61,205 nucleotides of DNA, taken from Betaproteobacteria bacterium (GTDB lineage Bacteria; Pseudomonadota; Gammaproteobacteria; Burkholderiales; SG8-41). Below are positions 22,733 to 61,205 of this stretch, in pieces. Location: contig JACQOJ010000141.1 of assembly GCA_016202605.1 (NCBI GenBank), forward strand, positions 1 to 61,205. Direction: 5' to 3'. Numbering within the stretch: position 1 is the first letter of the stretch; every line of letters starts with the position of its first letter. The notes beneath the pieces were generated by a model, which saw only the letters and a program-made list of their open reading frames with translations, made no database searches and was not told the DNA's origin. Both the position numbers and the translations under genes were made by a program.

Positions 22733-23704
22733 TTATTCGACCTTCAGCCCCGCCGCGCGCACCACTTCGCCCCAGGCGCGCACTTCATCGGCCACGTGCT
22801 TCTTGAACTCGGCCTGCGTGTACGGCGCGGCTTCGGCTGAATTTCCGGCGAGCAGTTCCTTCATTCTCGGCTGCGCCACCGCTTTCATCGCTTCGGCGTG
22901 CAGCCGCGCGATGATCGCCTTCGGCGTGCCGCCGGGCGCGAAGAATCCCGTGTTGCAGCCCATTTCAAACCCCCGGATCGCTTCCGCAACCGCCGGGGTA
23001 TCGGGGTACAGCGGCGAGCGCTTCGGCGAGGTGATTCCCAGGAGCGTCAACCTCCCGGCCTTGATGTGGGGAATGGCGGCGGATATGCACGAGAAATACA
23101 TCCCGGCTTCGCCTCCAACCAGGGCGGCCGTGGCCGGCCCGCCGCCCTTGTAGGGCACGTGCAGCAGCTTCACGCCGGTGTCGCGTATGAACCGTTCCGC
23201 CGTGAGGTGCGTGATCGAGCCGGGGCCGGAAGACGCGAACGCAAGCTGGCCGGGGCGCGCCTTGGCATGATCGATCAGCTGCTGGATCGACTTGACGCCG
23301 ATCCTGGGATTGACGACGAGCACCAGCGGCGAGCGCGAAGGCAGCGCGATCGGCTCGATGTCCTTCAGCGGGTTGTACGGCAGCTTCTTGTAGAGGCTCG
23401 CGCTGATGGCGTGGCTCGGAACGTCGGTCATGAGCAGGGTGTAACCGTCAGAGTTTGCCTTCGCGGCGATGGAGACGCCCAGCGTGCCGGCGGCGCCGGG
23501 GCGGTTGTCGGGGATCACCTGCTGACGGAGCGATTCGGAAAGCGCTGCGCCCAGGCCGCGGGAAATGACATCGGTGATGCCGCCCGGAGGCCAGGGGACG
23601 ATCAGCCGGATCGGCCGCGACGGATACTCCTGCGCGCCCGCATGCTGGATCATGGGCAGGAACACCGCGGCGAGCAACAGACTTGCGGCTTGTGCGGCTT
23701 TCAT
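22733..23704 (-). CDS. Bug/TctC-family tripartite tricarboxylate transporter substrate-binding protein
   Basis: Signal peptide; EYPSRPIRLIVPWPPGG; NRPGAAGTLG; DGYTLLM. Start MKAAQAASLL. Confidence 0.9.
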   Translation of the reverse strand: MKAAQAASLLLAAVFLPMIQHAGAQEYPSRPIRLIVPWPPGGITDVISRGLGAALSESLRQQVIPDNRPGAAGTLGVSIAAKANSDGYTLLMTDVPSHAISASLYKKLPYNPLKDIEPIALPSRSPLVLVVNPRIGVKSIQQLIDHAKARPGQLAFASSGPGSITHLTAERFIRDTGVKLLHVPYKGGGPATAALVGGEAGMYFSCISAAIPHIKAGRLTLLGITSPKRSPLYPDTPAVAEAIRGFEMGCNTGFFAPGGTPKAIIARLHAEAMKAVAQPRMKELLAGNSAEAAPYTQAEFKKHVADEVRAWGEVVRAAGLKVE

Positions 23705-36743: not shown

Positions 36744-37697
36744 ATGTTTCTTTCACGTGCTGCGATATGGGCGATTTCCGCCGGGATGCTGATTCTCGGT
36801 GGCGATCCGGTGTTTGGCCAGGACAAATATCCCGGCAGGCTCATTCGGATTGTCACGGCAACCCCCGGAAGCAATCACGACTGGGGCGCGCGCCTGGTCG
36901 CGCAGGAGCTTACGCCCCGTATCGGTCAGCGGGTGATCGTGGAGAATCGCGGCAGCGTCGCGGTCGAATACGTGGCCAGGGAAGCGCCACCTGACGGGTA
37001 TACCCTTCTCTTCTACGGCGCATTCGCCTGGTTGCAGCCCTTGCTGACAAAAGTGAACTGGGATCCGCTCGGGGATCTCGCGCCGGTCAGCCTGGCGATG
37101 AGCTCGCCCAACGTGCTGGTCGTGCACCCGTCGCTGCCTGTCAAGTCCGTCAAGGAGTTGATCGCTCTCGCCAAGGCCAGGCCGGGCGATCTCAACTACA
37201 GCGCGGGCGGCGGCGGCTCCACGCCGCACATCGCGGCCGAGTTGTTCAAGTACATGGCGGGCGTCGACGTCGTCCGTGTCCACTACAAGGGTTCCGGTCC
37301 GTCGATGATCGGCCTGCTCGTGGGCGAAGTGCACCTGATGTTCGCCGCGTTGGGACCGGTCTTGCCCCACGTCAAGCAGGGCAAGGTTAGGCCGATCGCG
37401 GTTTCGACGCCCAGGCGAACGCCGCTGATGCCCGACCTGCCCGCGGTCGCGGAAACCCTGCCGGGCTATGCATCGGAGGCGACGATCGGTTTTTTTGTTC
37501 CACGCAAGACATCGCCGGCCATCGTCAATATCCTCAACCGTGAGATCGTCCAGTCCCTGAAGACGACGGATCCGCGAAGGTTGGCAGGGGCCGGCGTCGA
37601 AGTCGTCGGCAACTCTCCCGAGGAGTTCGCCGGCTTCATCAAAACGGAAATGGCCAGGATGGGCGAGGTCATCAGGAGCGGCTCCTTCACCAAATGA
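36744..37697 (+). CDS. Bug/TctC-family substrate-binding protein
   Basis: Signal peptide; KYPGRLIRIVTATPGS; PDGYTLLFYG; VHYKGSGPSMIGLLVGEVHLMF. Confidence 0.9.
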   Translation: MFLSRAAIWAISAGMLILGGDPVFGQDKYPGRLIRIVTATPGSNHDWGARLVAQELTPRIGQRVIVENRGSVAVEYVAREAPPDGYTLLFYGAFAWLQPLLTKVNWDPLGDLAPVSLAMSSPNVLVVHPSLPVKSVKELIALAKARPGDLNYSAGGGGSTPHIAAELFKYMAGVDVVRVHYKGSGPSMIGLLVGEVHLMFAALGPVLPHVKQGKVRPIAVSTPRRTPLMPDLPAVAETLPGYASEATIGFFVPRKTSPAIVNILNREIVQSLKTTDPRRLAGAGVEVVGNSPEEFAGFIKTEMARMGEVIRSGSFTK

Positions 37698-54624: not shown

Positions 54625-55683
54625 TCAGGCTGAACGGCTGGTAATGCCCGAGAGGTTCCGCGGGTGGGGCGTTATTTCCCCGCGCTCGATCCGGCGCGCG
54701 ATGTTCAAGACCGTCTCCTGAGCGGGAACGGCCAACCCTAAGCTGCGTGCCTTGCTCTCCAGCAGCCCGTTCGTGTACTCGAGCTCGGTGCGCCGCCCTC
54801 GCAACAGGTCCTGGGCGACCGAGGGGCGTTCCTGTGCAGTCAGTCGACCGAGCCGCTCCGTAAGGCTGCGGCTGATTTTCATCGCGGAATGCCGATCGCC
54901 GGCGGCCGCCGCTGTCCACGTGTCCGGAGAGGCGCCGTAGATCGATACGAGCGAATAGCCGAGAGACTGCCCGACGCGGATGCCCTCGGCCGCCAATCGG
55001 ATGATGACCGGTCGCAGAAAATCCGCCTTCAATAGCTCATGGCTGGTAAGACCGGATGCCGCCGAAAGCCCGTGGGAGATCGAGTTGGTGACCAGCTTCG
55101 ACCAGCGCTCGCCCTGGAGATTGGTGGTCGCCACCGCGCTGTCTACCACGCCGAGCGCACGCACGACCTCTGCGACGCGCGGCGTCACCTTGCCGCCGGG
55201 CCGGCCTACGCGAAACACCGTGTAGGCATCGCCGCCGGGCGTGGAAGTGCGAATGACATGGCCGAGTCCGACGGCATTGACTCCGATCGAGCTCATGACT
55301 ACACCCATTGTCCGCTGCCAGCCCACCACGAGTGCGATGTGTTCTTCGTTCATGCCATTCTGCATGGAGACGATGCAACCGTCCGGGGCGAGGTACGGGG
55401 CGATGAGCGTGGACGCCCGGAGCGTGTCGTATGACTTGACGCAAAGAAACACAACGTCGAGCGGTCGGGCGGCGAACTTGCCGACTTCGCTGACGTGCAA
55501 CACTGCGGGCCGCGCGACCTGCTCGGCCCGCGTATCGCTCAGCCGCAGACCTTGCCTGCGGATCTGCTCGACGCTTTCTTGCCGCTGACTGATCAGAGTG
55601 ACGTCCTCGCCGGCGAGCGCGAGGTGCCCGCCGATGTAGCCGCCGACGCCGCCAGTGCCCAGTACGCCGATGTGCAGACTCAT
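54625..55683 (-). CDS. ketopantoate reductase family protein (2-dehydropantoate 2-reductase-like)
   Basis: IGVLGTGGVGGYIGGHLALAG Rossmann motif; RGRRTELEYTNGLL C-terminal ApbA motif. Confidence 0.88.
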   Translation of the reverse strand: MSLHIGVLGTGGVGGYIGGHLALAGEDVTLISQRQESVEQIRRQGLRLSDTRAEQVARPAVLHVSEVGKFAARPLDVVFLCVKSYDTLRASTLIAPYLAPDGCIVSMQNGMNEEHIALVVGWQRTMGVVMSSIGVNAVGLGHVIRTSTPGGDAYTVFRVGRPGGKVTPRVAEVVRALGVVDSAVATTNLQGERWSKLVTNSISHGLSAASGLTSHELLKADFLRPVIIRLAAEGIRVGQSLGYSLVSIYGASPDTWTAAAAGDRHSAMKISRSLTERLGRLTAQERPSVAQDLLRGRRTELEYTNGLLESKARSLGLAVPAQETVLNIARRIERGEITPHPRNLSGITSRSA

Positions 55684-55714
55684 GGTCTGCCCTGAAGGCG
55701 CGTCAGGCGAGCGC

Positions 55715-57085
55715 TCAAATCACCAACATGCGCGCGAGGTCGCCTGCGTTTTCCAGCCGTTCGAGAGACCAAACTGTGTCTATCGCTTTCTGGATCTGCT
55801 CCGCCGTCAGATAGGGCCTGGCCTGGTCGCGGAACTTCTTCTCGGCCTGCGCCTCGGTCATCGGGCGCTTGGGGTCGCCGGGGAAATGATCCACGCGCTT
55901 GCGGAAAGTCTTGCCGTCCTTCATGTGCACGGTGACGATGCCCGGGTAGAACTTCGGGTAAATGTTCTCGATTTCGGGATCGGGCACGAGCTCGGTGCGC
56001 GCCGTCAGATCCTGCGCGTCCGGAGCCTGGATGCGGGAATCGAGGAACTGGGCGGCGGTGACCTCCCCATCGAGCAGCGCAATCGCGACGCAGTAGTTGA
56101 AACTGTGGTCGGCCGACTCGCGGGTCGTGGGCTTGAGCTTGCTCGCGTCCCACGAGGGTTTCTTGAATGCGAAGTCGTAGAGCCCCACCACCACGCGTTC
56201 GATGTCGCGCGGATCGATGTTGTTCTCGGCGCGCAAGTCGAGCGCGGCCTGCACCGGCGATTGGGTCATGGTTTCGACCGGGTAGTACTTCAGGTAGGTG
56301 CGCATGATCTTGTGCTCGCGGATCGGGCCGGTCAGCGCGTCCAGGTCGCCGCCGCCGGCGACGATGTTGAGGTAGCCGTAGTCGCCTTCGAAGACTTTCA
56401 GCGGTCCGGTGATGCCTTCGGCGGCGAGCAGCGCGGCGAACACGCCGTCGCCCGCGGCCTTGGCTTCCGCCGTGCCCTTGATCTTGCCGATGACGCCGCG
56501 CCGTATTTCGCTGAGGAAGTTGGCCTGGCTGCCGGCGATCGCCATCGAGTGCGCGATCTTGTCCGCGGGCAGCTTGAGCAGGCGGGCGGCCGCCGCGGCC
56601 GAGCCGTACACCATGTTGGTGGGATGGTCCCAGCCGCGCGTCCACAGGCAGGGCTCGCCGCAGTGGTCCACCAGCCGGAGCTGGATTTCGTAGGCGTTCA
56701 CCAGGCCGCAGATCAGTTCGCGCCCGTCGAGCCCCTGCGCCTCGGCGACCGCGAGCACGCTCGCGAGATTGCCGCTGGGATGGCCGGGATCGCGGCTCAT
56801 CAGCGTGTCGTTGTAATCGAGGTAGCGGATCGAAGTGCCGTTGGCCCAGGTCGCGCCCAGCACCGAGGTGCGTTCAGTGGTGCCGAGGATGGTCGCTTCC
56901 GGATTGCCGCCGAGCCGTCTCACCACGCTGCGCATGATCTTGGCCGGGTCGGACGAGAACCCACCCAGCGCGCAGCCGAGCGTGTCGAGGATGGTCATCT
57001 TCGCCTTGCGCACCACCTCCGGCGGCAGTTTCTCGTAGCGGATCTGCTCGGCGAGGCCGGCGAGCTTCTCGACTATGGTCGTCAT
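55715..57085 (-). CDS. MmgE/PrpD family protein
   Basis: TILDTLGCALGG; NGTSIRYLDYNDTLMSRDPGHPSGNLASVLAVAE. Confidence 0.9.
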   Translation of the reverse strand: MTTIVEKLAGLAEQIRYEKLPPEVVRKAKMTILDTLGCALGGFSSDPAKIMRSVVRRLGGNPEATILGTTERTSVLGATWANGTSIRYLDYNDTLMSRDPGHPSGNLASVLAVAEAQGLDGRELICGLVNAYEIQLRLVDHCGEPCLWTRGWDHPTNMVYGSAAAAARLLKLPADKIAHSMAIAGSQANFLSEIRRGVIGKIKGTAEAKAAGDGVFAALLAAEGITGPLKVFEGDYGYLNIVAGGGDLDALTGPIREHKIMRTYLKYYPVETMTQSPVQAALDLRAENNIDPRDIERVVVGLYDFAFKKPSWDASKLKPTTRESADHSFNYCVAIALLDGEVTAAQFLDSRIQAPDAQDLTARTELVPDPEIENIYPKFYPGIVTVHMKDGKTFRKRVDHFPGDPKRPMTEAQAEKKFRDQARPYLTAEQIQKAIDTVWSLERLENAGDLARMLVI

Positions 57086-57114
57086 TGCCTTCTCTCTCCC
57101 GTTGTTGTGAGGCG

Positions 57115-58080
57115 CTATTCGACTTTCGCGCCGGTGGCGCGGATGACTTTGCCCAGCTTTTCGACCTCCGTCTTGAAGTACGTGGCGAATTGCTCCGCCG
57201 TTCCTCCTGCGGGATCCAGCCCCCGGCGCGCGAACTGCTCCTTCATGTCCGGGAGAGTCAGTATCTTGTTTACGGCGGCATTGAGCTTGGCGACGATGTC
57301 GCGGCTGGTCCCGCCCGGCGCGAATAGCCCGTACCAGGTCGCAAATTCAAAGCCCTTCACTCCGGACTCGTCCACCGTTGGCAGTTCCGGCATTGCCGGC
57401 GCGCGCTTGATACTGGTTACGGCGAGTGCGCGCAACTGCCGCGCTTTCAGGTTGGGTATCGTCCCGGGCAGGGCAGCAATCATGGCCTGAGTCTCGCCGG
57501 AGATCATCGCGGTGAGGGCGGGCACCGTGCCTTTGTAGGGGATGTGGGTCATCCTGGTGCCGGTGTCCAGCTTGAACATCTCGGTAGCCAGGTAGGACGC
57601 ACCGCCGACGCCGGACGAGGCATACGCGATCTCGTTGGGGCGCCGTTTCGCCAGAGCGATGAACTCTCGCACGTTATTTGCCGGCAGCGAAGGGTGTACT
57701 ACCAGCACATTGGGCGTCGACGCCGCGAGGACGATGGGTATGAAGTCGCGGAGGGTGTCGTAAGACAGTTTCTTGTACAGCGTGTGGTTCGCCGCCAGCG
57801 AGTTGACCTGCAGGATCAGCGTGTAACCATCGGGCGCCGATTTCGCGACGATCTCCGAGCCGATCACCGTGCCGGCGCCCGGGCGGTTTTCCACGATCAC
57901 CTGCTGTCCGAACGCCTCGGTGAGCTTCGCGGCCATCTGGCGGGCAACGATGTCGGTGCCCCCGCCGGGCGTGAACGGCACGACGATGCGCACCGTGCGG
58001 GCCGGGTACTGCTGCGCGATCGCCGACACGCTCGCCGCAAACATGAGCGGCAGCAGGACCAGGACTGTTCTCGTGACCAT
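57115..58080 (-). CDS. Bug/TctC-family substrate-binding protein
   Basis: QQYPARTVRIVVPFTPGGGTDIVARQMA; NRPGAGTVIGSEIVAKSAPDGYTLIL. Confidence 0.92.
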   Translation of the reverse strand: MVTRTVLVLLPLMFAASVSAIAQQYPARTVRIVVPFTPGGGTDIVARQMAAKLTEAFGQQVIVENRPGAGTVIGSEIVAKSAPDGYTLILQVNSLAANHTLYKKLSYDTLRDFIPIVLAASTPNVLVVHPSLPANNVREFIALAKRRPNEIAYASSGVGGASYLATEMFKLDTGTRMTHIPYKGTVPALTAMISGETQAMIAALPGTIPNLKARQLRALAVTSIKRAPAMPELPTVDESGVKGFEFATWYGLFAPGGTSRDIVAKLNAAVNKILTLPDMKEQFARRGLDPAGGTAEQFATYFKTEVEKLGKVIRATGAKVE

Positions 58081-58164
58081 GATCGCCTCCTTCGTCTTGT
58101 AGTCGGCGTGCCTCACCCCTCGGCGGGCTGCCATGTTTTTCCTACGGCGCCAAAGCTAGCACCT

Positions 58165-58225
58165 CTTGTACATACCAAGAAGATATAAAATGGAATGTGT
58201 AATGCATTTTTGGAATAGAAAGGGC
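58165..58225. promoter_or_regulatory. divergent promoter/operator region between Bug operon and LysR gene
   Basis: AT-rich island TATAAAATGGAATGTGTAATGCATTTTTGGAATAG in a GC-rich context, with AATGCATT palindrome and TGGAAT direct repeats. Confidence 0.45.
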
Positions 58226-58230
58226 GCGTC

Positions 58231-59223
58231 ATGAACCTGCGACAGATGCAGTATTTGTGCGAGATCGCCAAGCGCGAGCTCAACATCTCCGCCGTTGCCG
58301 CGGCGCTGCACACCAACCAGCCGGGTATCAGCAAGCAGGTGAAGCTGCTGGAAACGGAACTGGGAATCGAGATCTTCGTGCGCTCGCGCAACCGGCTATC
58401 GGGCATCACCTCACACGGGCGCAAGATCATCGAGATGGCGCAGAGCATCACGAACGAGGTTGCCAACATCAAGGCCGTGAGCCGGGACGTCGTGCAGAAA
58501 GACAGCGGCTCGCTCGTTATCGCGGTCACGCATACGCAGGCGCGCTACGTGCTGCCCGAGGTGATCAAGCGCTTCACCGCGCGCTACCCCAAGGTGCGCA
58601 TCACCATGCGCCATGCCGACCCGGAGAAGATCACCGAAATGCTGCTTTCCGGCGCAGCCGATCTGGGCGTCACCACCAACGACCCGCCCGCGTTGCGCGA
58701 ATTGGTCGTGCTGCCCGTCCGCGAGTTCCGGCGCGTCGTGGTGGTGCCACGCGGGCACGAACTCCTGCAACGCCGGCGGCTGACGCTGAAGGCGTTGGCC
58801 CGCTATCCGATCGTCACCTACGAACCCGCGTTCACTGCGCGGGAAATCGTGGTGCGAGCCTTCGACAAGGCGAAACTCGAACCCAGGCTCGTCATCAGTT
58901 CGATCGACGCTGACGTGATCAAGACTTGCGTGGAGCAGGGAATGGGCATCGCGGTACTTTCGGAGGTTACTTTCGATGCCGGGCGCGACTTGAACCTGGC
59001 GGCGATTCCCGCTGGCCACCTGTTCGACCCCTCGATCACCAAGATATGGCTGTGCCGCAAACACTACCTGCGGCGCTATGCCTACGATTTCATAGAGATG
59101 TGCAACCCGCGTTGGAGCAGGTCCACCGTCGAGCACTTGATGGCTGAACGCCCAACAACCCTTGGGGGTGACTTTTCTCCGGAAAATTCGCGGCGCCTTG
59201 TAGAAGTCTCTCGGGAATCCTGA
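58231..59223 (+). CDS. LysR family transcriptional regulator (CysB/Cbl-like)
   Basis: MNLRQMQYLCEIAKRELNISAVAAALHTNQPGISKQVKLLETELGIEIFVRSRNRL; CysB-like long sequence. Confidence 0.9.
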   Translation: MNLRQMQYLCEIAKRELNISAVAAALHTNQPGISKQVKLLETELGIEIFVRSRNRLSGITSHGRKIIEMAQSITNEVANIKAVSRDVVQKDSGSLVIAVTHTQARYVLPEVIKRFTARYPKVRITMRHADPEKITEMLLSGAADLGVTTNDPPALRELVVLPVREFRRVVVVPRGHELLQRRRLTLKALARYPIVTYEPAFTAREIVVRAFDKAKLEPRLVISSIDADVIKTCVEQGMGIAVLSEVTFDAGRDLNLAAIPAGHLFDPSITKIWLCRKHYLRRYAYDFIEMCNPRWSRSTVEHLMAERPTTLGGDFSPENSRRLVEVSRES

Positions 59224-60026: not shown

Positions 60027-60917
60027 TTACTCCGGACCGACGAAGCCGATGTATGCCCCACAGGCTTCCGCCGGCGTTGCCAGCATGGCGTGCTCCCCGG
60101 TGTTGCGCACGCCGCGCGCCAGAGGCGGCATGCCGTGCTCCTGCATCCAGCGGGCGGCCGCGCCCATGCCGGTGGTGCGGTATAGCGCCTGGAACGGACC
60201 GGGACCGCGGCGCTGCAGTGCGTCGGCAGCCGGCCCCGGCGCGTAGGGCTGGACGATGCCAAGACCCATCGGGCCCAACTGGAATACCGCCATGTTCGAC
60301 ATGATCACCGTGCCCCGCTGCAACGGCGGTTGAGGCATGCCCAGCACCTTGGCGTACGTTGCTGCTGCGGCCTCGGCGTCCTCGGTGACCATGTAGGCTC
60401 GCTCCAAGGCGTACACCCCATTGGGATGCTCGCCGGCGCCCGGCACCTGCTCGCGGCGCTCCGCCATCGGTGTCAGGTGCTGAATGAAGAAGATCGGCAG
60501 CGGGTTCCCGGGGCCGAGCACCGCGAGCTTCCATCGCAGTTCCTGCCCGGCCGGGCTGAGTCGGCTGCCTTCAATCGCGTCGCCCACGTCCACGCCGCGG
60601 CTGCGCATTGCGCTCACGTCCGCCACGAGGTCGTCGCTTTGCAGAACGATGTAGCGAATGCCGCCGCCCGCCGCGATGAACTTCGCCAGACCCGCACCCC
60701 AGCTTCCGGGCCGACCGGCTGCCGCTTTTTGTCCGGCCTGATCGCGGATCGCCAACAGCTCTATGTAGTCGTCCTGGTTGAACGCGATGGCATTGTGGGT
60801 GCCCCTGCCGGTATGGACTCCCCCCGGATAGATGTTGAATCCCAGCTTGCGGTACTGATCGATGGCCTGCTGCAGATCGGGGACGCAGATCATGACGTGG
60901 TCAATACGCGTGAACAC
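60027..60917 (-). CDS. VOC family protein (two-module)
   Basis: FTRIDHVMICVPDLQQAIDQYRKLGFNIYPGG; second module YALERAYMVTEDAEAAAATYAKVLGM. Confidence 0.82.
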   Translation of the reverse strand: MFTRIDHVMICVPDLQQAIDQYRKLGFNIYPGGVHTGRGTHNAIAFNQDDYIELLAIRDQAGQKAAAGRPGSWGAGLAKFIAAGGGIRYIVLQSDDLVADVSAMRSRGVDVGDAIEGSRLSPAGQELRWKLAVLGPGNPLPIFFIQHLTPMAERREQVPGAGEHPNGVYALERAYMVTEDAEAAAATYAKVLGMPQPPLQRGTVIMSNMAVFQLGPMGLGIVQPYAPGPAADALQRRGPGPFQALYRTTGMGAAARWMQEHGMPPLARGVRNTGEHAMLATPAEACGAYIGFVGPE

Positions 60918-60941
60918 GGGCGGCTCCCATCCAAACTCTCG

Positions 60942-61205
60942 TTAACGCCTGATCAGCGCAAGCACTTCCTCGAGCACGCCGTCGGCGATGGCTTCGAGTT
61001 CTCCCGGCGTGCGGTTCTGGATCGGGTGCGGCACCCACGCGACCGCGGGATCCAGGCCGAGCGCGCGCGCCTGGGCGGCGGCGGCCGGCTTGAACGCTTC
61101 CGTGGCGATCACGCATCCGGGAATGCCGCGGCGATCGAAAGTCGTGATGTCGTGCAGACTGCACGACGTGCACGACCCTCAATCGGCCAGTCCCACGACG
61201 ACGAC
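60942..61205 (-). CDS. UGSC-motif selenoprotein family protein (5' end beyond window; UGA at 61179-61181 read as Sec)
   Basis: Minus strand frame VVVVGLAD-U-GSCTSCSLHDITTFDRRGIPGCVIATEAFKPAAAAQARALGLDPAVAWVPHPIQNRTPGELEAIADGVLEEVLALIRR*. The in-frame TGA produces the exact UGSC motif; 25 bp upstream of the VOC gene on the same strand. Confidence 0.82.
61142..61175 (-). promoter_or_regulatory. candidate bacterial SECIS element
   Basis: Minus strand inner hairpin GTCGTGCA-GTC-TGCACGAC (61149-61167), loop starting with G 20 nt after UGA; outer helix TCGTG (61171-61175) / CACGA (61142-61146). Confidence 0.7.

Follow-up and report, generated by a model that had tools for sequence, protein, structure and literature searches.

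The window, that is, the whole 61,205-nt stretch of DNA analysed here, corresponds to an entire contig (C119) of its own genome assembly (2.8 Mb, 156 contigs, 73.7% complete), and the contig itself stops at position 61205. At this end lies the C-terminal half of a gene with a U-G-S-C motif, followed downstream by a VOC/glyoxalase-like gene. The features of the locus are as follows:

60027..60917, minus strand: VOC/glyoxalase-like gene (PF13468) with a GTG start, downstream of the UGSC gene
60942..61205, minus strand: UGSC-family selenoprotein gene, C-terminal half (87 residues and a TAA stop)
61136..61181, minus strand: predicted SECIS hairpin in full, UGA included, -26.9 kcal/mol, z -4.58
61149..61167, minus strand: predicted SECIS apical stem-loop, 8 bp stem GUCGUGCA/UGCACGAC, loop GUC
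61179..61181, minus strand: in-frame UGA, first residue of U-G-S-C, TGA in 80/80 relatives and 8/8 copies of the own genome

Translation of the minus strand from 61205 to 60942 gives VVVVGLAD-U-GSCTSCSLHD..., in which the in-frame UGA is residue 9 of 87, and 78 residues follow it before the TAA. This re-reading agreed with the initial annotation on the frame, on the TGA giving U-G-S-C and on the intact 78-residue C-terminal region; the stop also precedes the GTG start of the VOC gene as described, but the gap is 24 bp and not 25. As the window takes in the whole contig, the gene was truncated where the contig stops and not by the window. About 87 N-terminal residues are expected past the contig end, given the 174 aa of the nearest ortholog, and this half was not found in the rest of the 73.7% complete assembly.

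The fragment matched the Pfam family UGSC (PF24696) with E=1.7e-22 and 80.8 bits (curated cut-off 25), covering profile positions 85-170 of 172; the full length was seen in orthologs only. With NF041046 it scored 81.9 bits, below the cut-off of 125, because half of the gene is missing. The HMM search thus bore out both the presence of a UGSC-motif gene at the window end, together with its frame and TGA-GSC motif, and the statement that UGSC is a recognised annotation family, for which these two models exist. The description of the gene as hidden holds for standard gene calling, which stops at the UGA, but not for the motif and the family, which has been known since 2008, so that the window gene is a new member of it.

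The nearest ortholog is found in a congeneric genome, Betaproteobacteria bacterium RIFCSPLOWO2_02_64_14 (MEQT01000221.1; G001:C221, locus L097), and is 94% identical over the window fragment. It encodes 174 intact residues with Sec at residue 96, and scores 132.7 bits with PF24696 (cut-off 25) and 123.8 with NF041046, just under the cut-off of 125. An upstream stop, a frameshift or a loss of homology, which would have spoken against the initial annotation, were looked for in this ortholog and none was present; the UGSC reading of the window gene therefore stood, the ortholog being intact and homologous over its whole length. The window gene is almost certainly a genuine UGSC-family selenoprotein gene. 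The out-of-frame ORF at 60901-61182 (93 aa, TTG start), which had been dismissed as probably spurious, does exist, yet its frame is open in only 4/80 relatives and closed in the other 76, and we likewise considered it spurious on this ground.

The alternative that the UGA is a true stop, owing to a pseudogene or a sequencing error, with the downstream frame as a relic, could draw on the fact that standard gene calling ends at this codon and on the incompleteness of the gene in the window. Against it, the codon was TGA in all 80 GTDB loci compared (the best 80 of 393 relatives) and a Cys codon in none, the loci having been found by peptide patterns that leave out the Sec codon; in the own genome, eight UGSC copies carry one TGA each. 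Folding of the 51 nt from the UGA gave -26.9 kcal/mol (z -4.58), and none of 200 shuffled sequences folded as well. The apical stem-loop of the window gene lies 14-32 nt from the U of the UGA, and an 8-bp apical stem with a loop starting with GU was found at a constant distance in 114 of 116 genes, the two exceptions being the C102 copies, which folded in a shifted register. The covariation score of the SECIS was 0.304, compared to 0.110 +/- 0.022 for shuffled and at most 0.145 for slid alignments (25 distinct sequences). At the SECIS loop, the serine codon was AGT in 108/108 cases, against 5% in the window genes. When the window gene was recoded with synonymous codons, all 8 stem pairs were reached in 2.2% of the trials, indicating that the stem is partly dictated by the protein sequence; the covariation and the loop codon are independent of this constraint. 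Of the sel genes that the initial annotation had proposed to look for, selB (444 bits), selA (588 bits) and tRNA-Sec (77.7 bits) were detected in the own genome, together on contig C48. UGA conservation, SECIS covariation and the Sec machinery together refute the true-stop reading, which we regard as vanishingly improbable, and on this sequence evidence the UGA of the window gene is predicted to encode selenocysteine. At the same locus as selA, a gene for a thioredoxin-reductase-like flavoprotein was noticed between selB and tRNA-Sec (G000:C48; L031:2761-3672, minus strand).

Inspection of the genes surrounding UGSC revealed a constant companion, a homologous protein of about 340 residues, either separate from UGSC or fused to it, with the motifs WSDGLPVVPPT, MAGCxPEYLP, NGP and ANATIGRA. 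In the own genome it was fused or adjacent in 7/7 UGSC genes with sequence on both sides. Among the GTDB loci it lies directly upstream on the same strand in 77/80, and in the three loci with no visible partner the contig runs out within 340 bases; in 31 of the 77 loci with a partner, the two genes overlap by the 4 bp ATGA, which holds the start of UGSC and the stop of the partner, as it does in the nearest ortholog. UGSC and partner were present in an identical set of 39/60 genomes of relatives, and their copy numbers correlated with a Pearson r of 0.99 (n=35 genomes with uncapped counts), a value inflated by relatedness, which does not produce the identical list of absences. In genome G005 the partner was found at 30/30 UGSC copies examined, and the distances among UGSC proteins followed those among partners (r 0.92). 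Taken together, UGSC and its obligate partner very probably form a two-component unit. The partner of the window gene is expected past the contig end and was not found elsewhere in the incomplete own assembly.

Scanning of the partner proteins gave no Pfam, NCBIfam or PDB match, with the exception of a thioredoxin part, and no match to GrdB. An apparent match between partner and UGSC was discarded, as it came only from those partner rows that still contained the tail of a fused UGSC. A Foldseek search with the partner and its thioredoxin domain returned thioredoxins, besides class I fumarate hydratases that were matched poorly over the whole chain (TM 0.22, rmsd 16) and judged to be due to chance. 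A few aquatic organisms have been described in which UGSC is fused to a domain called 'Unknown_1' (PMC2398784), and this may be the partner domain found here.

The thioredoxin part itself is a CxxC domain with which the partner often begins in the subfamily of the window gene, and a PDB sequence search with the partner alignment matched thioredoxins or thioredoxin-fold proteins in 47/47 cases. Where this domain is not fused, a homologous ORF is found directly upstream of the partner, as on contig C96 of the own genome, and a TrxB-like gene follows the copy on contig C102. Near most UGSC paralogs of the own genome the thioredoxin domain is absent.

The other neighbours of UGSC are variable. No VOC homolog was found near any of the 80 relatives, and the VOC gene, rejected as part of the UGSC unit, is probably outside it since it is not conserved next to UGSC elsewhere. 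TctC receptors were nearest to UGSC in 5/14 positions of the own genome, compared to about 6% of genes (P about 7e-4), an association that is only suggestive because TctC genes cluster. Further neighbours include acyl-CoA dehydrogenase, FAA hydrolase, MmgE/PrpD and isochorismatase-like genes. In its own right, the number of TctC matches in the own genome (151; receptors of tripartite tricarboxylate transporters) is very high for a 2.8 Mb assembly. Three TctC genes lie within the window (22745-23563, 36888-37676 and 57115-58116), and the region 54625-59223 is a catabolic-looking block with a ketopantoate-reductase-like gene, MmgE/PrpD, TctC and a divergent CysB-type regulator.

A UGSC match was obtained in all 74 genomes searched of the bacterial family, and the copies per genome among the relatives ranged from two to dozens. 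Genome G005 (5.7 Mb, 98% complete, 2% contamination) contained 58 UGSC matches, 51 of them with exactly one in-frame TGA. The 30 copies examined shared no more than 68% identity with one another and selA was present in a single copy, so that the high number does not come from a co-assembly of strains. The motif variants U-G-G-C and U-G-A-C were common among the G005 paralogs (L196-L222), and therefore a search restricted to UGSC misses part of the family. Two fused UGSC-partner genes of this genome have lost the motif and carry NAGIT instead (G005:C76, L227, 15000-19500; G005:C80, L228); they are possibly non-catalytic members.

The AF2 model of the ortholog, built from 36 sequences, was confident (pLDDT 92.4, pTM 0.85) and showed strands and helices in alternation, Sec being placed where the helix that follows strand 3 begins. 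Foldseek returned generic flavodoxin/Rossmann-like matches and no specific relative, and no thioredoxin was among the 50 PDB matches listed; a PDB sequence search with UGSC gave no match. The fold is thus modelled as Rossmann/flavodoxin-like and not thioredoxin-like, in disagreement with the likely Trx-like fold assigned to UGSC earlier, when a redox role was suggested (PMC2398784). In profile searches, 32/36 UGSC proteins matched TIGR01917 (glycine reductase selenoprotein B), 28/36 GrdF and 14/36 TIGR01918, and no unrelated family recurred among the matches of these proteins. The GrdB-type matches had E values of 1e-2 to 1e-5 (best E 1.9e-5) and covered one domain, TIGR01917 scoring 16 bits against a cut-off of 602. 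PF07355 was not matched. An hhalign comparison with a single GrdB aligned Sec with Sec (E 1.5e-4, probability 51%), and one with a set of UPNC GrdB-like proteins gave no usable match. We read UGSC, on these profile comparisons, as a putative remote homolog of the Sec domain of GrdB, and not as a member of the GrdB family.

These relationships bear on what the pair might do. It is somewhat probable that UGSC and its partner constitute the two parts of a GrdB-like selenoreductase whose substrates vary, in which UGSC would be the Sec-bearing subunit; for GrdB-like chemistry as such, by analogy, we consider the chances about even. Most likely the system would be fed by thioredoxin, with the partner as the substrate subunit. 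Complex formation, chemistry and substrates of the pair are what we infer, using as a model the half-reaction of selenoprotein B (GrdB) in glycine/sarcosine reductase. The substrate would be held by the partner and attacked by the UGSC selenolate, the second residue of U-x-x-C (and residue C102) would resolve the selenium intermediate, and the reduced state would be restored by the thioredoxin domain or by a TrxB-like enzyme. UGSC paralogs would then differ in substrate.

The U-x-x-C motif, the thioredoxin neighbours and the Trx-like fold suggested in PMC2398784 would also suit a selenium-dependent thiol-peroxidase or disulfide oxidoreductase, with the partner only as a chaperone or regulatory domain. 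We consider this unlikely, given the confident Rossmann/flavodoxin-like model with no thioredoxin among the PDB matches listed, the family matches pointing to GrdB-type reductases, and the presence of about fifty divergent paralogs per genome beside uptake receptors and catabolic genes, which fits substrate diversity better than antioxidant defence. It is less probable still that the pair binds or detoxifies selenium or metal/organometal compounds instead of reducing carbon substrates. Metal or selenium handling has been proposed for the SAO selenoprotein system, and other multi-selenoprotein operons have been interpreted likewise (PMC13188914); the presence of several cysteines near Sec, with U-x-x-C-x-x-C in the subfamily of the window, would be in keeping with such a role, but the second cysteine pair is lost in paralogs such as those with GSCTSW, GSCTPA or GSCSSG, and no metal-resistance genes were found among the annotated neighbours.

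UGSC and its partner might represent an unrecognised two-component class of selenium-dependent reductases, in which a stand-alone GrdB-type Sec domain is paired with a substrate subunit of a new fold. Within single genomes of betaproteobacteria, probably non-fermenting ones, this class would have diversified to act on about fifty distinct substrates, which would make for one of the largest bacterial selenoproteomes; we put this forward tentatively, its chances being a little short of even. What is new here is the obligate partner, the putative remote GrdB homology with the modelled fold, and the copy number, while the gene itself belongs to a known family. Up to about fifty different UGSC copies in related bacteria suggest a large, unexplored set of selenium-based reductases. 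The largest whole selenoproteome reported comprises 63 selenoproteins, with a co-assembly caveat (PMC13188914), and the 51 single-UGA UGSC genes of G005 approach this figure with one family alone. The obligate partner, the thioredoxin donor domain and the likely GrdB ancestry make the function of UGSC testable.

Compared to known systems, the window gene belongs to the UGSC family (PF24696, NF041046, the 'UGSC-containing protein' of the GOS selenoproteome, PMC2398784), with which it shares motif and Sec position, its ortholog having the length of the family and being homologous to it throughout; it differs in that the window copy is half a gene, and in the obligate partner, which lies outside any Pfam or NCBIfam model matched. 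UPNC GrdB-like selenoproteins occur in most genomes of the bacterial family (G000:C73:14283-14642, L194, L231; L185-L195). These GrdB-type Sec proteins (PF07355) thus live in the same bacteria as UGSC, but have the motif U-P-N-C, a long C-terminal extension and one or few copies. With GrdB, GrdF and GrdH (TIGR01917, NF040794, NF040795, PF07355), UGSC shares a U-x-x-C at a corresponding position, profile matches to the C-terminal domain that are weak yet recur, and the link to thioredoxin. In contrast to them, UGSC is a single domain of about 170 aa that matched neither PF07355 nor subunits of the GrdA/GrdE type, its partner is unrelated to GrdB, and it is found in Proteobacteria with catabolic neighbours.
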